The translations under genes were made by a program, and so were the position numbers. This document shows, in pieces, positions 18,292 through 41,833 of a stretch of DNA of 64,000 bases (position 1 is the stretch's first letter; every line of letters begins with the position of its first letter). This DNA is from Pseudomonadales bacterium (lineage in GTDB: Bacteria > Pseudomonadota > Gammaproteobacteria > Pseudomonadales > JAHRWD01), in contig JARGPR010000002.1 in the NCBI GenBank assembly GCA_029210125.1, positions 144,919 to 208,918 of the forward strand, given 5' to 3'. Below the pieces are notes generated by a model. The model did no database searches, had not been told where the DNA came from, and saw only the letters and a program-made list of their open reading frames with translations.

Positions 18292-19854
18292 TTATTTGCT
18301 GTCGCCAAGCCACGGTACCAATAACGCGCTAAACGCTGAAAGGTTTTGCTGTTGTTGTTCCACGGTATCGTCATACTCCATAAATAAAATAACACCGGTC
18401 GCCGACTCATCACCCTTCTGTAATTTTCCGTATACACCGTACAATTTACCGAGATAATCATTAACGGTATTTTTTCCGGCGAGATGATACCAGCTCCAGA
18501 CTATAAGGTTGGTATTACTTGAGTGGAGTCGCGCCTGTTTTACCGTAGCCAATCCATCTGTATTGGGGACTGCAACGGTAGTGTCTTCCACCTGTCTCCA
18601 GTTTGAAAGCTCTTCAACTAAAAGATTTTGCGAATTGACCAACTCTGCATCCTGGCTTTGTCGTGGATAGTGCTCCAAAAAAAGACCGATTCGTTGATCA
18701 CCGTTACGATAAACCGCCTGCAGCTCAACCGATGCACCTGAATAGATCGGACGCCAGTCGCTTATAGGTTGTTGCTCTAATTGCCAAGGCCCAAAATTAG
18801 AAGGTAACTCGATTATTTTTGAAACCGTTTCTGTACTCTCTGGTGTCTGATCTTGATATGCCATTGCGGGCCAAACCAATATTAACGCAAGCGCAACAAC
18901 CACAACCGGCATGGATGCATGATAATCATTATTTGGAAACCGGCTTTCGCTAATGGGCTGATTTTCAATTGGTTCATCAATAGCTTCGTTCGCTTCTTTT
19001 TTAGATCGAACGTCATCTGCCCAAAACGAGCCAATATAAAACATGACAAACATCACTATCCCAAAAAACACCCAGCCATAAATAATATGATCTACGCCGG
19101 TCGCTAGTTTCATGCTACTAAAATGCCCGATCATCACGATCATAAACGCCCGGATACCGTTCGCTATGATCGGAACAATTATAAACAAACTAAAAAACAC
19201 CCAGCGCTTTAGCCTGGATGTAAAGGTGATATAACAATAGAGAGAGCCTAATGCTATGGAGGCGATCAAGTAACGAATACCACTGCAGGCTTCAACTACC
19301 GACCAATTTCCAGTTGGCAAGCTAAGGTGATTACCTTCCCAATAGATGGGTATTCCCGTCAGCTGAATTGAACGGATGGTAAAAAAAGCGGTGAATTCAA
19401 TCAGCGATGGAATCAGCCTTTCGCCGAAGGGAACCATAAAAAACAAAAAACAGAGCGGGAAAAGAATGGTGCGGGTGATGGACCAGCCGAACAGTGTCAA
19501 CACAGCAACCGGAATCATGGCGGTAAACATTAGCTGTTGTATAACGGCTATATCGACCAAGTTAGCGAAAAACCAGAACAGTCCGCAAAACGCCAATAAA
19601 ATCAACCCATACCCGTTTGTGTTTATGGGTTGCTGCGACAGTCGATCTCGCTTTTGCCAAATAAGATAAAGGGCAATGGGTAGTATCAAAAAACCATGGG
19701 CAAATGTTTCTGACCGCCACCAGATTTCGACCATCGACCAGGCGGTCTGCCAATATAAAAGAAGTGGCACGGCAAGCAGCGATGAATTAATCAGCAAGCG
19801 ACGCCTGATATTGGGTTCTGCTTCGTATTGATTTGACAGAGTAGAGTTATTCAC
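18292..19854 (-). CDS. xrtA: Exosortase A with C-terminal EpsI domain
   Basis: A 520-residue integral membrane transpeptidase-like protease, the processing enzyme for PEP-CTERM proteins. The N-terminal exosortase part (about residues 20-290) has some eight membrane segments. The three catalytic positions are Cys190 in VVEACSGIRYL, Arg235 in ANGIRAFMI and His256 in GVDHIIYGW. The C-terminal part (about 315-520) is an EpsI-like periplasmic domain with LPSNFGPWQL and a WYHLAGKNTVNDYLGK segment. XrtA cuts near the VPEP site of its substrates during their transfer across the inner membrane. One clear substrate lies at 33333-34307. It is embedded between a glycosyltransferase and the rhamnose genes. 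Confidence 0.94.
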   Translation of the reverse strand: MNNSTLSNQYEAEPNIRRRLLINSSLLAVPLLLYWQTAWSMVEIWWRSETFAHGFLILPIALYLIWQKRDRLSQQPINTNGYGLILLAFCGLFWFFANLVDIAVIQQLMFTAMIPVAVLTLFGWSITRTILFPLCFLFFMVPFGERLIPSLIEFTAFFTIRSIQLTGIPIYWEGNHLSLPTGNWSVVEACSGIRYLIASIALGSLYCYITFTSRLKRWVFFSLFIIVPIIANGIRAFMIVMIGHFSSMKLATGVDHIIYGWVFFGIVMFVMFYIGSFWADDVRSKKEANEAIDEPIENQPISESRFPNNDYHASMPVVVVALALILVWPAMAYQDQTPESTETVSKIIELPSNFGPWQLEQQPISDWRPIYSGASVELQAVYRNGDQRIGLFLEHYPRQSQDAELVNSQNLLVEELSNWRQVEDTTVAVPNTDGLATVKQARLHSSNTNLIVWSWYHLAGKNTVNDYLGKLYGVYGKLQKGDESATGVILFMEYDDTVEQQQQNLSAFSALLVPWLGDSK

Positions 19855-28488: not shown

Positions 28489-29136
28489 CTAAAACCACGC
28501 CTCGGGAATGATCAAAATATCCCCCGGAAGAACCTCAACATTAGCACTGATATCACCATCCCGTATCAGATCATCTAGCCGAACTCGATATTCCTGCTGC
28601 TGCCCGGCAACGATTCGCACAATTGAAGCTTTATTTCCATCGGCGAAATCGGTAATGCCACCAACTGCAATCATCACATCAAGCATTGTCATATTTTGCC
28701 GATACGCTAGTGTTTGCGGCGACGTAGCCTCACCTAAAATCCTGACCTGTTCGGAATAAGGACCAACAAAACCACCCACGATCACAGTAACAATAGGGTC
28801 TTTAATATATTTACTCAAAACCTTTTCAATTTGGCGTGCGGTTTGAGTTGGCGTTTGCCCCGTCACTTTGAGGTCCTCAACCAGGTTGGTACTGATCATG
28901 CCATCCGGCCTAACCGTTACCGTGGTAGAAACCTCTGGATTATTCCATACAAAAATACTTAAAGAGTCTCCTGGTCCGACAAGATAATGATAATCGGAGG
29001 GCTGAGTCGTCGATGGCGGAATCATTTGCGCAGACGGCAACATTGGCTTGTCTGATGCGCAGCCAACTAACATGACCGAGCAAAAAATCCACACAAACCT
29101 CAACGACCACCGGTTTAACAATTTATTGGTATTCAT
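28489..29136 (-). CDS. XrtA system exopolysaccharide export lipoprotein (Wza-like)
   Basis: A protein of about 215 residues with a lipoprotein signal (VMLVGCASDKPML), then a polysaccharide-export (Poly_export) domain: YLVGPGDSLSIFVWNNPEVS, TVRPDGMISTNLVEDLKVTG, and a SLBB-like part (VRILGEATSPQTLAYRQ). It forms the periplasmic/outer-membrane exit for the polymer. The ATG at 29136 is preferred because GGAG lies just upstream and it gives a normal lipoprotein signal; an open start at 29205 would add a non-signal leader. It is the first gene of the long minus-strand block. Confidence 0.92.
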   Translation of the reverse strand: MNTNKLLNRWSLRFVWIFCSVMLVGCASDKPMLPSAQMIPPSTTQPSDYHYLVGPGDSLSIFVWNNPEVSTTVTVRPDGMISTNLVEDLKVTGQTPTQTARQIEKVLSKYIKDPIVTVIVGGFVGPYSEQVRILGEATSPQTLAYRQNMTMLDVMIAVGGITDFADGNKASIVRIVAGQQQEYRVRLDDLIRDGDISANVEVLPGDILIIPEAWF

Positions 29137-29402
29137 AAATTCCACACTTCTCCAGTTACGAGCAAACCTATCGGATAATTTTAGCACACATACAAAATGT
29201 AACACCCATCCTAACTATTTTTAAAAACAATTAGACTACAGATCTGACAAAACGCAGAAAACCTTTAATCGACAGTAGTACATCGCTATTTAGAGCTTTA
29301 ATTTGCAATATGTTAGTGCGATGATGCTTTTCTACTTACAAGAGCGGCGAGTGTTGGCCTTATCGTTCTACTTTTATACCGATCGATTTTAAATATGTAT
29401 TG

Positions 29403-30152
29403 ATGCACACTTCCCTAACAGATCAGTTTTTTTCGTACTTCACGCCGGTTTACGCCAACACCGATGCGCTGAAAGCTGAAGTTTATAGCATACGCCATGA
29501 TGTCTATTGCGATGAATTTGGCTTTGAGGCGGGCAACAGTAATCATGTTGAAAAAGATGCTTACGATGATTACTCCCACCATTTTCTAGTGCGGCACAAC
29601 AACAGTGACACTTACGCTGGGTGTATCCGACTAATCCTACCGTCTGCAAACCAACCCAACACACCACTACCTATTGAAGAACATTTCTTCGATATTCTCG
29701 ACACACAGGTGATAGACCCCAACACGTTAGTTCACGGTAGATTTGCAGAGCTATCCAGGCTTGCGGTGCACAGCAATTTTAGGAAACGTACCTCTGATAG
29801 GCGTCGGCCTGAAGGATTAACCGACAACCCCGAAGAACGCGAACACTCGAAACGCGCTTTCCCTCTAATCAATGTCGGCCTTTATCTATCCGCATTTTCT
29901 CTCGCCCTCTACTGCCACACTTATTACGGTCTAGACAATATTTTCATGGTGACAGAGCCACGGCTGGCAAGAAATATAAAACGATTCGGGTTGGCATTTG
30001 AGCAAGCAGGACCACTGGTCGAATACCACGGAGCACGCGCACCCTACGTATTTAAGGCAACTAATGAGCGAAACATGTCAGAAGAAACCAAAAACTTACT
30101 GGAGGGTATAAATGATATTCTCATTCAACAATTCAGCCCACACCTGCCGTAA
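29403..30152 (+). CDS. PEP-CTERM/exosortase system-associated acyltransferase (TIGR03694-like)
   Basis: A 249-residue GNAT-fold acyltransferase related to N-acyl amino acid synthases and LuxI-type autoinducer synthases. Segments: LKAEVYSIRHDVYCDEFGFE, the YAGCIRLILPS strand, FAELSRLAVHSNFRKR, and VTEPRLARNIKRFG. Such enzymes use acyl-ACP or acyl-CoA to acylate an amine. The ATG at 29403 is chosen; a TTG immediately before it is also possible. It is divergent from the export gene, and the 266-base spacer holds no consensus sigma-54 promoter. The ThiF-nitroreductase gene follows 15 bases downstream, so the two are probably co-transcribed. The product is unknown. Confidence 0.88.
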   Translation: MHTSLTDQFFSYFTPVYANTDALKAEVYSIRHDVYCDEFGFEAGNSNHVEKDAYDDYSHHFLVRHNNSDTYAGCIRLILPSANQPNTPLPIEEHFFDILDTQVIDPNTLVHGRFAELSRLAVHSNFRKRTSDRRRPEGLTDNPEEREHSKRAFPLINVGLYLSAFSLALYCHTYYGLDNIFMVTEPRLARNIKRFGLAFEQAGPLVEYHGARAPYVFKATNERNMSEETKNLLEGINDILIQQFSPHLP

Positions 30153-30167
30153 CGTCCATTCTCAAAT

Positions 30168-32180
30168 ATGAATACTCAAGACGAATTCAACTTCGATACC
30201 GCCTTCAGCAGAACGATAGGCTGGCTAACCAGTTCTGAACTGCACTCGATTAGAACAAAAAGGGTCGCTATTGCCGGCATGGGCGGAGTCGGTGGTATCC
30301 ACCTGCTAACACATACCCGGCTGGGAATATCCAATTTTAACATTGCCGATTTTGATCACTTCGATCTACATAATTTCAACCGGCAGGCCGGTGCCAATAT
30401 AGATTCGATAGGTGAACCCAAAACCGCCGTTATGGAAAAAATGGCCAAACAGATCAACCCCGAACTGGATATTCGGGTGTTTAAGCAGGGTGTGACCGAT
30501 GAAAATATCAACGATTTTTTAGCCGAGGTTGATATTTATGTCGATGCGCTGGATTTTTTTGCGCTCGATATACGCCGCAAAGTATTTGCCCGCTGCGATG
30601 AACTCGGTATCCCCGCCATCACCGCGGCCCCAATTGGTATGGGAGCAGGACTTCTAGCGTTTTTACCGGGAAAAATGAGCTTTGAGCAATACTTCAGGCT
30701 CGAAGGAAAAGATGAGCAAGAGCAGCTGATACGATTTTTGGTGGGATTGACACCAACTCCAATACAACGAATATATCTGGTCGAACCCTCCGCCGTTAAC
30801 TTCAATCAACGCAAGGCATCCTCCACCCCGATTGGCTGCGAACTCTGCGCCGGTTTTGCGGCATCCATGACCGTCAAAATACTATTGAAGCGAGGAAAAG
30901 TACCTTCCGCACCCCACGGCCTTCACTACGATGCCTACCTGAACAAACTAAAGAAGACCTGGCGGCCAATGGGTAATCGTAACCCACTACAAAAACTGAT
31001 CATTGCCCTGGCAAAAAAAATTATCCACGACGAGCCCTCCGTAGAGGAGCCTGAAACCATCACCTATTCGCGCTCTATTGAGCAGATTTTGGATATCGCT
31101 CGCTGGGCACCAAGCGGTGATAACAGTCAGGTTTGCCGATTCGAAATCATAGATGAAACCAGACTAATACTGCACACAGAGGATACCCGCGATCATTGCG
31201 TGTACGATTTACAAGGCCATGCAAGCCAGCTATCAACCGGTACTATGCTTGAAAACATCCGTATCGCTGCTACCCAATTTGGCCTAAAAACAAACTGGCA
31301 GATTGAAGACAATCCAGCAGAAAAAAGCCCAATAGAAGAAAACCCGGCAGGAAAAGACCCCGCAGAACAATCCCCCTCAATCCATATTCAGTTCCAGCCA
31401 GACCCCTCTATACAAAGAGACCCGTTATTTCCGCAGATTAAAATACGTTCAGTCAATCGAAAGCCCTACTCTAGGCAGCCACTATCTGATCGCCAAAAAA
31501 CCGCCCTGAACGAATCATTACCCGCGGGTTATAAAATCATCTGGATCGAAGGCCGCAAGCCAAAAACAGCCATCACAAAACTGCTGTTCAAAAATGCCGG
31601 TTTACGTTTGAGCCTACCCGAAGCTTACCCAACCCACAGCCAAAATATTGAATGGAGTGCTAGATTCAGCGAAGACAAAATCCCGGATCAAGCGCTAGGT
31701 GTAAACCCTATCACCCGAAAGCTAATGCGGTGGAGCCTACAGAGTTTCAAACGAGTCAGGCTTCTCAATAATTATTTGGGTGGTAGTTATGTGGCTAGAC
31801 TGGAGATGGATCTGATACCAAGCCTGATGAGCGGTGCACATTTCTTTATCGTTGCGGATCAAACACCAAAGCAGCCACAGGACTATATTCAAGCGGGTAT
31901 TGCAGCACAGCGGTTCTGGCTTACCGCTACCCGGATTGGTCTACAGCTACAACCTGAAATGACCCCGCTGGTCTTTGCTGAGTATATTGATCAGGATATT
32001 AAGTTTTCGGCCTCCCAAAAATATATTAACAGCGCTAGAACACTGCGCGGCCAACTGGCCAAACTGGTAACACCTGAAAACCCGCAGAACCTGGTATTTG
32101 CCGGGCGCATCGGGTCTGCAAGCATTGCAACCTCTCGCTCAACCCGTAAGCCGTTAGCGGATTTAACGATTGATCAGTAG
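30168..32180 (+). CDS. ThiF/E1-like adenylyltransferase fused to nitroreductase-like domain
   Basis: A 670-residue fusion. Residues 1-270 form an E1/ThiF fold: the ATP-binding AGMGGVGG (36-43), acidic loop and arginine finger DFDHFDLHNFNRQ (61-73), the VDALDF Asp motif (125-130), and a single CxxC (CELC, 224-227). The second half (about 300-660) resembles an FMN nitroreductase, with SRSIEQILDIARWAPSGDNS near 301-320 and AGIAAQRFWLTATRIGLQ later. A low-complexity Pro/Glu/Lys insert lies near 383-407. E1 domains adenylate carboxylates and nitroreductases can oxidise or reduce heterocycles. Together with the acyltransferase this suggests modification of an amino acid or peptide. No ubiquitin-like partner or precursor peptide is visible nearby. 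Confidence 0.87.
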   Translation: MNTQDEFNFDTAFSRTIGWLTSSELHSIRTKRVAIAGMGGVGGIHLLTHTRLGISNFNIADFDHFDLHNFNRQAGANIDSIGEPKTAVMEKMAKQINPELDIRVFKQGVTDENINDFLAEVDIYVDALDFFALDIRRKVFARCDELGIPAITAAPIGMGAGLLAFLPGKMSFEQYFRLEGKDEQEQLIRFLVGLTPTPIQRIYLVEPSAVNFNQRKASSTPIGCELCAGFAASMTVKILLKRGKVPSAPHGLHYDAYLNKLKKTWRPMGNRNPLQKLIIALAKKIIHDEPSVEEPETITYSRSIEQILDIARWAPSGDNSQVCRFEIIDETRLILHTEDTRDHCVYDLQGHASQLSTGTMLENIRIAATQFGLKTNWQIEDNPAEKSPIEENPAGKDPAEQSPSIHIQFQPDPSIQRDPLFPQIKIRSVNRKPYSRQPLSDRQKTALNESLPAGYKIIWIEGRKPKTAITKLLFKNAGLRLSLPEAYPTHSQNIEWSARFSEDKIPDQALGVNPITRKLMRWSLQSFKRVRLLNNYLGGSYVARLEMDLIPSLMSGAHFFIVADQTPKQPQDYIQAGIAAQRFWLTATRIGLQLQPEMTPLVFAEYIDQDIKFSASQKYINSARTLRGQLAKLVTPENPQNLVFAGRIGSASIATSRSTRKPLADLTIDQ

Positions 32181-32221
32181 CTGACCAACCTCCCAAGCAA
32201 ACAGCCCCGAACAAACCACCA

Positions 32222-33097
32222 CTATAGCAGTTTGGTTCTCATGCCAGACATTGCGAATGAAAAAACCAGATCACTGATGTCGCGTTTATGACAAGCAGGA
32301 AGCGCAGAACGCAGCTTTACCAGCTTCTGCTTCAGCTCTGGATCAAACTCAGCACGTCGCTCACTTTTGATAGCCACATTGTAGGGCACCAAAAAACTGG
32401 AATAGAGCTTGGCGTATTCTGACAACGATTCAGCAACCGCAGACTCAAAATCATTTTTACCAAAGGCTGCCTCCAGTGAATAGAGATAATCCAGGGTAAA
32501 AAGCTCCGCCTGCCGATCCGCATATTGATACGCAAAATAGTCAATGGTTTGTTGCGATTTTAGATGACCAAAATCAACTAGATAGACCCCACCGCCGGGC
32601 TTGAGCACCCTTGCAACTTCAGAAAACGTACGCTTTAGTGCGACTACATCAGGCAAGTGGTGAAGCGCTACGGTTGAATACACAGCATCTACACTATTGT
32701 CTTCAAAGGCTTGCAGCTTAGAGATGTCGGAACGCACAAAATCAACATTGACTAACCCAAGATCAGCCACATGAGCTTCCGCCCGCCCCAGCATCTGCTC
32801 AGACAAATCTACCCCGGTAAATTGGCACGATGGATGAAACTGCGCCACCATCGCCAGCTGGGTAGCGGGGCCACAGGCAAGGTCAATGACTCTATCACCC
32901 GGGCAGATTACCTCACTGATGTGCGCGCAATGATGCAGGTAAACGGGAGCCATAACCCCGTCTACCCGGCCAGCTTTTGTGTACGCGGCCACCTTGTCCG
33001 GATCATCCATCACCAAGTCAGGTTCGGTTTTTCGTGGCTGGGATTTAGCTCCTAACAACTCCCAAAATAATATTTTCGCCATGGCGACACTTGGCAT
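32222..33097 (-). CDS. Class I SAM-dependent methyltransferase
   Basis: A 291-residue methyltransferase. Motif I is VIDLACGPATQ (70-80), followed by FTGVDLSEQML, the FVRSDISKLQAF segment with motif II Asp, STVALHHLPD, and ARVLKPGGGVYLVDFG (motif III). The N-terminal part (DDPDKVAAYTKAGRVDG) and long C-terminal helical part are specific to its subfamily. It converges on the ThiF-nitroreductase gene, with 41 bases between stops. Context suggests it methylates the product of the acyltransferase/ThiF pathway, but a small-molecule substrate elsewhere cannot be excluded. Confidence 0.82.
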   Translation of the reverse strand: MPSVAMAKILFWELLGAKSQPRKTEPDLVMDDPDKVAAYTKAGRVDGVMAPVYLHHCAHISEVICPGDRVIDLACGPATQLAMVAQFHPSCQFTGVDLSEQMLGRAEAHVADLGLVNVDFVRSDISKLQAFEDNSVDAVYSTVALHHLPDVVALKRTFSEVARVLKPGGGVYLVDFGHLKSQQTIDYFAYQYADRQAELFTLDYLYSLEAAFGKNDFESAVAESLSEYAKLYSSFLVPYNVAIKSERRAEFDPELKQKLVKLRSALPACHKRDISDLVFSFAMSGMRTKLL

Positions 33098-33332: not shown

Positions 33333-34307
33333 TTAAGCTTCACGACGCTTTCTTGAAAAACCAAGACCCAGCAGGCCAGCACCCAACAGTGCAATCATGC
33401 CAGGTTCTGGAACCATAGTTGCGTCGGCATTGGTAGTTGCACGCGCGCTCAACTGATAAGTGTGAGTCGAATCAAGCGAACTTGTTGCATAGCTGAAGTG
33501 TCCACTATTGGCTACACCTATGCTAGAACCTGCATACAGAGGTATACCATTCGCAAATGGTGAGTTTGCAGAACGCGTAGTGTTCAGACTAAAAGGGTTA
33601 TCTGCATCTACTGTACTTCCAACTACCCAGTTATCAACTAAAGTACCGCCTAGACTCAAATCCGACAAAGTGAAAACTACGCTATAGGAAGCAGTAGCAA
33701 ACGAAGGGAATATAGAATCGGAGGATACAAATGCTTCCAGGTAGGCAGTTGCATCGAAATCAACATCGATCGATCCGTTCACGTTACTAACCGTCCAGTT
33801 GGAATTAAGGTTGTTATTACCGGTACTGGAACCAGAATCCTGCCCTATTAAAGAAACGTAAGCAGCTGATTCAATGTCTGCGCCCGTAGCGGCATTAAGA
33901 CCTGTAATAGGTGAACCCACCTGATTTTGGTCAGCAGCAGCAAATTGGCTGCTTGGATCACTAGTAAGAGAACTAAAAATTGGGAATGCATTATCTACAA
34001 TTGCAGGGCAAGTGCCTACGCATGCGGGAGCCAAATCAATAGTACTGGCACTGATCGTACTACCACTATCGTTCAAAACCGTAGCGCCCAGCTGAGCACT
34101 TATATCAGCGGTACTGGTATAAGTAATTGCATTATTGAAATCTGCAATATCCAGCAGAGTACCGCCTTGCGAAAATTCCAAATTGTTAATTTGCAATACT
34201 GAAACCGCTAATGCGTCAGCTTGCACACTGCCGGCGCTGAACAACGCCAGACTGCCAACTGCGGCAACTGCGGCAACGCCATTTTTCTTAGTTTTAAAAG
34301 TTTTCAT
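33333..34307 (-). CDS. PEP-CTERM sorting-domain protein (exosortase A substrate)
   Basis: A 324-residue exported protein with a signal peptide (GVAAVAAVGSLALFSAGSVQA). The body is low in charge and rich in Ser, Thr, Ala, Asn and Asp, as is common for extracellular matrix proteins. The C-terminus is a complete PEP-CTERM domain: VPEP at 299-302, a hydrophobic helix at 303-317 (GMIALLGAGLLGLGF) and a basic tail (RKRR, 319-322). XrtA should cut near VPEP. There are two cysteines (CVGTC). The gene stands alone between a sigma-54 promoter and a strong terminator, so it is regulated separately from the polymer operon. Its role in the matrix is unknown. Confidence 0.92.
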   Translation of the reverse strand: MKTFKTKKNGVAAVAAVGSLALFSAGSVQADALAVSVLQINNLEFSQGGTLLDIADFNNAITYTSTADISAQLGATVLNDSGSTISASTIDLAPACVGTCPAIVDNAFPIFSSLTSDPSSQFAAADQNQVGSPITGLNAATGADIESAAYVSLIGQDSGSSTGNNNLNSNWTVSNVNGSIDVDFDATAYLEAFVSSDSIFPSFATASYSVVFTLSDLSLGGTLVDNWVVGSTVDADNPFSLNTTRSANSPFANGIPLYAGSSIGVANSGHFSYATSSLDSTHTYQLSARATTNADATMVPEPGMIALLGAGLLGLGFSRKRREA

Positions 34308-34358: not shown

Positions 34359-34375
34359 AGCAACCAGCGTGCCAA
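34359..34375 (-). promoter_or_regulatory. Sigma-54 (RpoN) promoter of the PEP-CTERM gene
   Basis: The minus-strand sequence TTGGCACGCTGGTTGCT matches the sigma-54 consensus (TGGCACG, four bases, TTGCT), with the invariant GG and GC separated by ten bases. Predicted transcription start is near 34348, leaving about 41 bases before the ATG at 34307, with GGGAT as ribosome-binding site. PEP-CTERM genes in other bacteria are known to depend on RpoN and the PrsK/PrsR two-component system, which fits this call. Confidence 0.9.
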
Positions 34376-37417: not shown

Positions 37418-39703
37418 CTAAGACTGCTTCACCATCAGTAGAACAACCGGAAGGATAAAAAAATCAAACAGTATTGCGATAATAATGGTCATACCTACCA
37501 TCAATCCAAGGATGGAGTTTATCGCAAAGCTGGAGAGTGCCAGCACAAAAAAGCCAAGGGATAATACTACGGAGGTGGTAATCAATGCACCACCCACCGC
37601 ATCAAAGCTGTAGGTGATTGATTGTTCGGCATTTAGACCCAAAGCCTTTGTTGCGTGGATATATTTGCTTAAAAAGTGAACGGTATCGTCTACGACAATT
37701 CCTAGTGAAACACTAAATATGATCGATGCTGCCATATTGATCTCTTGAACTAGCAGCCCCCATATACCAAACGCAATGGCGGCGGGGGCAATATTGGGAA
37801 TTGTGGCAATTATTCCGTAGCGGAGTGAACCCAACGCAAAGATCAGGCATATCGAGATCAGGAAAAGGCTGATTACGGACCCTTCAACCATGCTACGAAT
37901 ATTGTTTTGTCCAAGATGGGCAAAAATGATAGAAATGCTTGAGCCGGTCGTGGCCAACTCCGGGGCGTTATTTTCTAACCAGTTGGCTGCTTTTCTTTCA
38001 AAAGCAACCATACCCTGGGACTTTAAACCCCTGAGGGAGATATTGATCTTAAGCGCGGATCGATCGAAACTAATCTGATTGTTTAAATCTAACCCGTAGG
38101 GCAAGGACATTTCATACAGCAACTGGTATTGGGAGGCCAATTGTGCGCTGACCGGTAACCGATACCACTGCTGCTCACCACTGTGAAGTGTACGATTGAG
38201 GCGTTTCAGTGTATCAGTATAGGTTGCGACGTGGGCAACATGGGGCTGGGTTCGCAACCACTCACTGAAAGCTTCTACTTTGCGAAGGAATTCGGGCTGA
38301 TTAATGCCGTTATCAGCACCGCTATCCAGTGAGTAAACCAACGAATGGACGCCGGTCAGATGCTGCTCTGTAAAATCGGTTGCATCACGAACCGAAACAC
38401 CCTTATCGAAATAGGCGATGGTATCGTCGTTTAGTTCGTTGCTTTGAATAAACCCAAGTAATAGCAAGATGATAGGTAACGCTGTCCAGAACAGTTTTTT
38501 TGGGTGGTTTAACACAACACTACAAGCCCAGCTCGATAGCATTTGGGATTTTAGAACCCTTGGCTGTGCTTTTGTTACCCAGCGAAGCGCTAGTGCAGGC
38601 AACAGCGCCATGGTGAAAAACCAGGCCGCTATCACGCCTAATCCCACCAGCGTCCCAAGCTCTCTAAGGGGTGGCGAATCGCTAAAGTTAACACTAAAAA
38701 AACCGATAGCTGTGGTAAAGCTGGTGATAAATATCGGCTTGATATTTTGCTCAAGACTAACACGCATGGCGTTTACTTTTTCATCACCACTTGCCAATCT
38801 TTGTAAATAGGTCGATAAAAGATGTACGCAGTCACATACGGCGAGGGTAAGAATAATAGTAGGTGCAGATACGTTCACCTGATTGATTGCAAAACCAAGC
38901 CAGCCCCCTGCCCCCATCGCAAACAAGACGCTACAACCTACAATAACCATTGAAATGAAGGCAGCGGGAATTGACCCAAGTAGATAGGCCATCAATAGCG
39001 AAACAACAACAAACATCAACGGGATCAGTGTTTGCCCATCCGAGAATGCAGATTCCTGAAATGCATTGGTGATTACGCTATTTCCGGTCAGGTATATCTT
39101 TGATTCTGGAAACAGCTCTAACAATTCATCTCTAAGCTGACGACTGGCGAGCACTATTTCTTCTACTTCCTGCTCGTTAGCACCCCCCTTGTCGGGGAAC
39201 TGCAACTGCACATAAACAGCGGTAACATCGGTTTTTTCAGAAACCAATTTATGAAGAATTTCTGGCTCTTCAATCGCGATTTGTCGTCTGACCAACATCT
39301 GTTCGACTGAAAGCGCCTCAAGATCCTCTATCAAATCGCCTACAAAAAGTTCATCGCCGTCTACAGTGGTGTGTTGATAATTGGTGATTGAATCAACTCG
39401 ATGTGAGTAGGGCAACAACCAGCTTTTTTCAGTTAACGCCAGCACCAGCGCAAGAGTCTGTTGAGAAAACACTTGCTGACTCTCGGGTGCAATCACGAAA
39501 ATCAGGTTGTCTTCGCGGCTGTAAGTATCTTCAATCTGATCAAAAGCTTCCAAAAACGGATCATTTTGGTCAAAAAATATTCTATAACTGGATTCGAGAT
39601 AAAGGTCTTTACAACCTATTGCCAAAAACGCAAGCAATACAAAAGAAATGAACGCTAAGCCCCAGCGCTTCTGAATCAGCCAACCTGCCAATAACTTGTT
39701 CAT
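37418..39703 (-). CDS. RND/MMPL-family transporter
   Basis: A 761-residue membrane protein with the duplicated RND plan: TM1 near residues 15-32, a large periplasmic loop, five grouped membrane segments (about 220-375), a second loop, and a second group (about 610-760). The sterol-sensing-domain-like cores include LAVCDCVHLLSTY and GIVVDDTVHFLSKY at equivalent places in each half. At this length it resembles MMPL or HpnN-like lipid exporters more than AcrB-type pumps, which are longer and have partners. No membrane fusion or outer-membrane partner gene is nearby. It may move a lipid or acylated product, possibly from the acyltransferase module, but the substrate is unknown. Confidence 0.82.
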   Translation of the reverse strand: MNKLLAGWLIQKRWGLAFISFVLLAFLAIGCKDLYLESSYRIFFDQNDPFLEAFDQIEDTYSREDNLIFVIAPESQQVFSQQTLALVLALTEKSWLLPYSHRVDSITNYQHTTVDGDELFVGDLIEDLEALSVEQMLVRRQIAIEEPEILHKLVSEKTDVTAVYVQLQFPDKGGANEQEVEEIVLASRQLRDELLELFPESKIYLTGNSVITNAFQESAFSDGQTLIPLMFVVVSLLMAYLLGSIPAAFISMVIVGCSVLFAMGAGGWLGFAINQVNVSAPTIILTLAVCDCVHLLSTYLQRLASGDEKVNAMRVSLEQNIKPIFITSFTTAIGFFSVNFSDSPPLRELGTLVGLGVIAAWFFTMALLPALALRWVTKAQPRVLKSQMLSSWACSVVLNHPKKLFWTALPIILLLLGFIQSNELNDDTIAYFDKGVSVRDATDFTEQHLTGVHSLVYSLDSGADNGINQPEFLRKVEAFSEWLRTQPHVAHVATYTDTLKRLNRTLHSGEQQWYRLPVSAQLASQYQLLYEMSLPYGLDLNNQISFDRSALKINISLRGLKSQGMVAFERKAANWLENNAPELATTGSSISIIFAHLGQNNIRSMVEGSVISLFLISICLIFALGSLRYGIIATIPNIAPAAIAFGIWGLLVQEINMAASIIFSVSLGIVVDDTVHFLSKYIHATKALGLNAEQSITYSFDAVGGALITTSVVLSLGFFVLALSSFAINSILGLMVGMTIIIAILFDFFILPVVLLMVKQS

Positions 39704-39966: not shown

Positions 39967-40482
39967 ATGAACAGACAAAGCTCTTTTGATCGCCAAGAAT
40001 TACTCAGCTGTGGCCACGGCGAAATGTTTGGCCCTGGTAATGCGCAGTTACCCACACCGAATATGTTGATGATGGATCGCATCACTAATATCACCGTCGA
40101 CGGCGGCATTGAAGGAAAGGGGGAGATCATCGCTGAGTTGGATATCAATCCGGATCTTTGGTTCTTCGACTGCCATTTCCCCGGTGACCCGGTGATGCCA
40201 GGTTGTCTGGGGCTTGATGCTTTGTGGCAACTGATCGGTTTTTTCCTGGCCTGGAAAGGAAACCCTGGACATGGTCGAGCACTAGGCGTGGGAGAAGTAA
40301 AGTTCACCGGCCAAGTATTACCTACGGCTAATAAAGTCACATATCATATCAATATGAAACGTGTCATCGAACGTAAACTGGTGATGGGTATCGGCGACGG
40401 TGTAATGCGAGTCGATGGTAAAGAGATTTACACCACTAAAGATTTAAAAGTTGGTCTTTTCACCAGCACTGAGAATTTTTGA
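39967..40482 (+). CDS. fabA: 3-hydroxydecanoyl-ACP dehydratase/isomerase
   Basis: A 171-residue hot-dog-fold enzyme, the normal FabA length. The active-site [12 protein letters not shown] gives His70, and [10 protein letters not shown] gives Asp84, matching the well-known E. coli residues. It dehydrates 3-hydroxydecanoyl-ACP and isomerises trans-2- to cis-3-decenoyl-ACP, the branch point to unsaturated fatty acids. fabB follows on the same strand after 133 bases, a common pairing in pseudomonad-like bacteria. It is divergent from the RND transporter gene. Confidence 0.97.
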
Positions 40483-40488
40483 GGGATG

Positions 40489-40515
40489 GATCTGGTACAT
40501 TGACCGCGCCAGATC
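40489..40515 (+). other. Stem-loop between fabA and fabB
   Basis: GATCTGG and CCAGATC form a perfect seven-base stem around a 13-base loop, seven bases after the fabA stop. No T-run follows, so it is not a standard terminator. It might protect the fabA transcript end or form part of a regulatory site. Confidence 0.5.
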
Positions 40516-40615
40516 AATATATCTGAAATTTACTGTCACAATTGCAGCGGCTATATTTAGTTATAATCTGCGACCGTAATAGCAACATTTTTGACCAACC
40601 ACATAGGACTACATC

Positions 40616-41833
40616 ATGCGTCGAGCCGTCGTCACAGGTATAGGCATTATTTCCTGCCTCGGAAATGATAAAGAAACCGTTCTGGATTCCCTCAAGCAGG
40701 GTAAATCTGGCATTAAATTTCAATCGGATTACGAAGAATTAGGCCTTAGAAGCCACATTGCAGGTACTGTTGATATCGATTTTTCCGAGCATATTGATCG
40801 CAAACAGCTTCGCTTTATGGGTGATGCTGCTGCGTATTCATATATCTCGATGCAACAGGCTATTGATGATGCAGGGTTGACTGAAGCACAGGTTTCCAAC
40901 CCTCGCACCGGAATTATCATGGGCTCCGGCGGTTCTTCCCCAATTAATCAGGTTGAATCTGCTGATATTTTACGCAACAAAGGTATCCGTCGAGTTGGAC
41001 CTTATCGTGTAACCCAAACCATGGGTAGTACCGTTTCCGCCTGCTTAGCAACACCATTTAAAATCAAAGGCGTGAATTACTCAATCTCCTCTGCTTGTTC
41101 CACTAGCGCTCACTGTATTGGCAACGCAATGGAACAAATTCAATTGAACAAGCAGGATATCGTTTTTGCCGGTGGCGGCGAAGAGTGCAGCTGGGCAATG
41201 TCCTATCTGTTTGATGCGATGGGTGCGCTCTCTTCCAAATACAACGACACTCCCGCCAAAGCATCGCGAACCTACGATGCCAACCGCGACGGCTTTGTAA
41301 TCGCAGGCGGTGCCGGGGTTTTGGTGATTGAAGAGCTGGAGCACGCATTGGCCCGTGGTGCAAACATCTATGCAGAGCTAGTCGGTTATGGCGCGACCTC
41401 CGACGGCCACGACATGGTCGCACCCTCTGGCGAAGGCGCAACACGCTGCATGCAGCAGGCGCTGGCAACCGTTGATGGGCCTGTTGATTACATCAACACC
41501 CACGGCACCAGCACACCGGCTGGCGATATCTGTGAGCTTGGCGCTATTAAAAATGTATTTGGCGATAACGTTCCCGCCATCAGCGCGACCAAGTCACTTT
41601 CAGGTCACTCACTTGGCGGAGCTGGTGTTCAGGAATCAATCTACAGCCTTTTGATGCAGCAGCATAATTTTATTGCTGCATCGGCCAATATCGAAGATCT
41701 CGATCCCGGGGCTGAAGGATTCCCGATTGTTACTGAACGTAAGGACAACGTCACACTAAACCGGGTTATGTCGAATAGTTTTGGTTTTGGTGGTACAAAC
41801 GCCTGCCTGGTATTCCAAAGTTATTCGAGCTAG
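40616..41833 (+). CDS. fabB: 3-oxoacyl-ACP synthase I
   Basis: A 405-residue condensing enzyme. The nucleophile Cys161 is in [12 protein letters not shown], and the two catalytic His lie in [11 protein letters not shown] and [11 protein letters not shown]. The ending [15 protein letters not shown] is typical. It elongates cis-3-decenoyl-ACP from FabA and is needed for unsaturated fatty acids. A TATAAT at 40562-40567 could give it a promoter of its own besides read-through from fabA. A strong terminator follows. Confidence 0.97.

Follow-up and report, generated by a model that had tools for sequence, protein, structure and literature searches.

Organization of the locus

The stretch of DNA analyzed here, 64,000 nucleotides from a Pseudomonadales bacterium and hereafter called the window, carries three adjacent genes for an acyltransferase, a ThiF-nitroreductase fusion protein and a methyltransferase. 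An ORF check recovered all three between positions 29403 and 33097, and profile searches confirmed the claim of an earlier note on this DNA that they lie beside an exosortase A (XrtA) system and a PEP-CTERM gene. The relevant features are as follows.

18292-19854, minus strand: exosortase A (XrtA) fused to EpsI (TIGR03109, 343 bits, cut-off 208)
28489-29205, minus strand: XrtA-system exopolysaccharide export protein, divergent from the acyltransferase gene (TIGR03027, 237 bits, cut-off 180)
29403-30152, plus strand: predicted acyltransferase, an OxzA/NAS-like N-acyl amino acid synthase of the PEP-CTERM/exosortase-associated kind (TIGR03694)
30168-32180, plus strand: ThiF-nitroreductase fusion (PF00899, PF00881, PRK08223, PRK14851, Rv1355c family)
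32222-33097, minus strand: SAM methyltransferase, optional tailoring partner (Methyltransf_25/11)
33333-34307, minus strand: EDSAP-1 family PEP-CTERM protein (NF041538, 222.8 bits)
37418-39703, minus strand: RND transporter of the HAE3/MMPL type, possible exporter (TIGR00921 and TIGR00833, both below cut-offs)

The full exosortase A exopolysaccharide locus, XrtA itself included, spans 7.8 to 29.2 kb of the window and contains genes for exopolysaccharide export, chain-length, kinase, FemAB, deacetylase and amidotransferase functions. The EDSAP-1 gene and the gene for the XrtA-system TPR protein PrsT lie on the side of the trio that faces away from this locus. Another Pseudomonadales genome (L022) has the trio genes in identical order, with proteins that are 78-84% identical, indicating that the grouping is more than chance. 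Gene neighborhoods in several other families also place the export-protein gene close to the acyltransferase gene, and in Rubrivivax gelatinosus UBA/ThiF-type genes have been tabulated as adjoining the export gene (PMC3684757).

A perfect sigma-54 promoter match, TGGCACGCTGGTTGCT, precedes the EDSAP-1 PEP-CTERM gene by about 50 bases (34359-34374, minus strand) and was the sole exact match found by a site search of the window. The L022 orthologue of this gene is also preceded by a similar site, the genome encodes a PrsR regulator (727 bits), and an RpoN-dependent PEP-CTERM gene has been published for Aquincola (PMC9850573). The same search detected no sigma-54 site with up to 2 mismatches upstream of either the acyltransferase or the methyltransferase gene, and co-regulation of the trio with the PEP-CTERM gene by sigma-54 is therefore unsupported. 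Between the methyltransferase and PEP-CTERM genes, a terminator-like hairpin could be read by eye. Genes for FabA and FabB (39967-41833) follow the RND gene, and L022 retains the gene order from the acyltransferase through FabB.

The acyltransferase and the fusion protein

The acyltransferase gene starts with the ATG at 29403 (an in-frame TTG lies at 29400) and encodes 249 amino acids. Its product scored 224.6 bits against TIGR03694 in the profile search, well over the curated cut-off of 111.95, and the genome contains an exosortase, so that the protein can be assigned to the PEP-CTERM-linked N-acyl amino acid synthases. It also matched FeeM and Autoind_synth. The E-x-D-x-x-D and E-x-S-R motifs of the LuxI/FeeM type are retained across the aligned relatives (the misframed L041 row was disregarded when the motifs were read). 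Craig et al. linked such synthases to PEP-CTERM loci in 2011 (as cited in PMC4897644 and PMC7293339). The ATG of the fusion gene follows after a gap of 15 bases, and the fusion thus has the adjacent synthase gene typical of OxzB and TrzS.

The fusion protein of 670 amino acids is encoded by a single ORF and combines a ThiF domain (PF00899, E = 7e-38) with a nitroreductase domain (PF00881, E = 5e-10). It matched PRK08223 and PRK14851, and its second half matched the Rv1355c family model at a score below the cut-off of that model. Its counterparts in Pseudoalteromonas sp. XMcav2-N and in three other members of the genus are 45-47% identical to it over the full length, and a Rheinheimera maricola fusion is 43% identical. 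The fusion was present as a single copy in 4 of 60 Pseudoalteromonas genomes, and at the one locus that we read (L023) the acyltransferase gene adjoins it. A likeness to OxzB of P. rubra itself is judged from genus, architecture and single copy number. A tblastn search of plasmids for a named OxzB or TrzS gave partial matches only, mainly to the ThiF part.

Alignment of 13 full-length fusions with E. coli ThiF showed that the GxGGxG loop, the arginine of the NxNRQ motif and D129 are invariant among the fusions. D129 aligns with the conserved ThiF/MoeB aspartate near the ATP alpha-phosphate, the type of residue that was mutated in TrzS as D217A (PMC12856293). These residues are consistent with the earlier proposal that the E1 domain adenylates a carboxyl group. 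In the oxidase half, the WAPSGDN (FMN) motif is also invariant and the QP motif nearly so. The fusion has one CxxC and thus lacks the two-CxxC zinc motif by which sulfur-carrier-activating E1 enzymes (MoeB/ThiF proper) are recognized. The earlier note had taken the single CxxC as a reason for caution. However, CxxC is not conserved among fusions and varies even within Pseudoalteromonas, where GCQLA is found, so that judging from the alignment the missing second CxxC is uninformative and no warning sign.

An AlphaFold2 model of the fusion, calculated from 14 sequences and without ligand, had a mean pLDDT of 77.5 and a pTM of 0.58, a value at which the relative placement of the domains is unreliable. 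Residues 10-272 of the model matched ThiF (Z 25.8), and residues 300-670 matched Acg (2YMV, Z 27.2, rmsd 3.0 over 297 residues), which is likewise the nearest reported fold for the TrzS oxidase (PMC12856293). Both folds are predicted, and the ATP and FMN pockets look intact in model and alignment. The top structural match for the cyclase (ThiF) domain, residues 7-260, was substrate-bound AclA of Tenacibaculum discolor (9egb, Z 28.2).

Co-inheritance with exosortase A

We surveyed 143 genomes of the class, which with few exceptions represent different families, counting a cyclase at E <= 1e-20 and XrtA above its cut-off. The cyclase was found in 17 genomes, XrtA in 27, and both in 16. In other words, 16 of the 27 genomes with XrtA had a cyclase, compared with 1 of the 116 without it (Fisher p = 3.3e-13, or 1.7e-12 after dropping the genome of the window). 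The only cyclase genome without XrtA, G098, is a draft assembly in about 560 contigs. Where cyclase and XrtA were on the same contig, they were 10-45 kb apart in all seven genomes. TIGR03694 was present in 15 of the 17 cyclase genomes. The earlier view of an acyltransferase acting on an amino acid, in a gene group tied to PEP-CTERM/XrtA loci, is supported. Of the cyclases in the class sample, 7 were fusions, and XrtA accompanied 6 of these; in G139, ThiF domain and oxidase are encoded by two adjacent genes.

The methyltransferase gene, which is convergent with the fusion gene and whose product gave Methyltransf_25/11 and UbiE/BioC-like matches, was much rarer. Relatives of at least 53% identity occurred in only 3 of the 143 genomes, namely that of the window, G061 and G134. 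The orthologues in the latter two, which represent two other families, are 53-60% identical, and in each case no more than 3 kb separates the gene from that of the cyclase. The sole other relative (36%) is on a contig with XrtA and TIGR03694 but without cyclase. The co-inheritance test proposed in the earlier note came out in favor of its idea for the cyclase with XrtA (p about 3e-13); the methyltransferase was present in just 3 of 17 cyclase genomes. The methyltransferase is a real but optional partner, and the trio is a core pair with an optional gene. What is new here is that the acyltransferase-cyclase pair travels with the exosortase A/exopolysaccharide machinery in the class sampled; in the searchable papers, we found no statement tying the oxazolone cyclase/oxidase to exosortase.

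In a midpoint-rooted tree built from 33 cyclase domains, the fusions of Pseudoalteromonas fall within a well-supported (98/99), mostly XrtA-linked set, beside Rheinheimera, which has XrtA. A genome-wide check of one of the Pseudoalteromonas genomes, sp. XMcav2-N, which keeps the pair, gave no match to exosortase A. The direction of change on this tree is conditional on the midpoint root. Fused and split forms require at least 5 changes, indicating that the fusion is labile. For a group of stand-alone cyclases (L028, L029, L031-L034, L042, L045, L046, L048 and L050), most of which are in XrtA genomes, the surrounding stretch showed no flavin oxidase. Some XrtA-linked cyclases thus lack an adjacent desaturase, and these enzymes might form a saturated oxazolone or rely on a distant oxidase.

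Relatives of the RND transporter, all counted together, are no more than 20 kb away from the cyclase or acyltransferase gene in 7 of the 17 cyclase genomes, against an expectation of about 0.6 (p about 2e-6 under a generous distance limit, 2e-5 without the genome studied here). In methanotrophs, a 41-42% identical relative occurs in the stretch around the cyclase; pumps of the type found here (41-46%) are often sited elsewhere in the genome. In parallel to the RND gene near the present cluster, mmpL9 flanks the tyz genes of M. tuberculosis (PMC10404671). Export of the lipid by an RND/MMPL-type pump is a reasonable inference.

Proposed pathway and alternatives

OxzAB of Pseudoalteromonas rubra and both TyzABC and TrzAS of M. 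tuberculosis make N-acyl oxazolones, contrary to the statement in the earlier note that no product had been shown for such genes (PMC10404671, PMC12856293). In these systems, an aromatic amino acid is N-acylated by OxzA, TyzA or TrzA, and the ring is closed by a ThiF protein or domain with ATP and desaturated by a flavin oxidase with O2, activities that reside in OxzB, TyzB/C or TrzS (PMC10404671, PMC12856293). The P. rubra system, which yields N-acyl tyrazolone and phenazolone, likewise has an acyltransferase gene adjoining a ThiF-nitroreductase fusion; the pair described here differs in being situated at an exosortase A/exopolysaccharide locus with methyltransferase and RND genes nearby. TrzAS (Rv1356c-Rv1355c) and TyzABC have the three activities predicted for this pair. 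TrzS is also a fusion, and gene pair and gene order are as in oxzAB and trzAS. However, these mycobacterial proteins are distant in sequence, TyzB and TyzC are separate, and an exosortase context has not been reported. The stieleriacine clusters of Stieleria (Planctomycetota) share NAS, ThiF, nitroreductase and methyltransferase genes, and in S. maiorica a PEP-CTERM gene and exopolysaccharide genes are nearby (PMC7293339, PMC12479983). In Stieleria, the ThiF and nitroreductase genes are separate, and the isolated products are open-chain N-acyl (dehydro)tyrosines.

Sequence, model and homology together suggest that acyltransferase and fusion very probably constitute an OxzAB-type N-acyl oxazolone pathway. 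The acyltransferase would attach a fatty acyl group to the alpha-amine of a (probably aromatic) amino acid. The ThiF domain would then adenylate the carboxyl group with ATP, and attack by the amide oxygen would close the 5(4H)-oxazolone (azlactone) ring. Desaturation of the alpha,beta bond by the flavin-oxidase domain, with O2, would yield a conjugated alkylidene oxazolone. In the few genomes with the methyltransferase, this enzyme may methylate the aromatic or the ring-opened product. The lipid may leave the cell through the nearby RND/MMPL-type pump. The first three steps are transferred from characterized homologues, and the conserved residues and the fold support them. We infer the last two steps, and a cell-surface role with XrtA and exopolysaccharide, from gene neighborhoods; the nature of the product, the amino acid and the exopolysaccharide link are likewise predictions. 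A RiPP peptide route of the PaaA/MccB kind shares the E1 fold, but the protein families, the adjacent synthase and the fused oxidase favor the oxazolone.

The oxazolone could instead be an intermediate on the way to an open-chain N-acyl 2,3-dehydro amino acid, here perhaps methylated, as the physiological product, with stieleriacines, thalassotalic acids and kyonggic acids as models; we regard this as unlikely. Oxazolones hydrolyze readily, and open-chain forms may therefore arise during extraction. Clusters with NAS, ThiF and nitroreductase genes (in Stieleria also a methyltransferase gene) do yield such compounds with the oxazolone unseen, and UbiE-like methyltransferases are encoded both in the window and next to the Stieleria neptunia cluster (PMC12479983). 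However, the expected tryptazolone went undetected after acetic acid quenching in the TrzS work (PMC12856293), and M. tuberculosis extracts held intact oxazolones (PMC10404671).

The earlier note had considered that the trio builds a lipid anchor or modifies PEP-CTERM proteins or peptides. That the genes are linked to XrtA and to a PEP-CTERM gene would fit, but characterized homologues use free N-acyl amino acids, and Pseudoalteromonas sp. XMcav2-N keeps the pair with no exosortase A match. Moreover, 11 of the 27 XrtA genomes have no cyclase, indicating that it is dispensable for sorting. A peptide product or lipid anchor is thus unsupported and in our view very improbable. We give almost no credence to an acyl-homoserine-lactone-like quorum signal made by the acyltransferase and tailored by the fusion, for despite the Autoind_synth match and LuxI/TraI-type matches below NCBIfam cut-offs, the best AHL synthase model scored 31.8 bits against 224.6 for TIGR03694.

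Possible role of the oxazolone

The physiological role of oxazolone lipids has been stated as an open question (PMC12856293). In Methylomonas sp. LW13, the distinct polysaccharide band disappeared when an N-acyl amino acid synthase of the PEP-CTERM/exosortase type was disrupted, and it returned on complementation (PMC11072679). A role of the predicted N-acyl oxazolone pathway in polysaccharide biology fits this knockout, and at the level of the genus, two Methylomonas genomes gave a cyclase match.

A bolder idea, which we consider a long shot, is that the exosortase A/exopolysaccharide system makes direct use of the oxazolone. An azlactone is an activated acyl donor, and outside the membrane the oxazolone could react with free amines of deacetylated polysaccharide (a deacetylase is encoded in the XrtA locus) or of PEP-CTERM surface proteins, and so link lipid, sugar coat and protein. 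If this were true, the non-exosortase oxazolones of Pseudoalteromonas would be a derived offshoot.

In view of the tight co-inheritance with XrtA in the class sampled, and of the nested position of the Pseudoalteromonas enzymes within exosortase-linked lineages, the role of oxazolone lipids is best sought at the bacterial sugar coat. The neighborhood pattern thus suggests a testable part for these unexplained lipids in exopolysaccharide biology.
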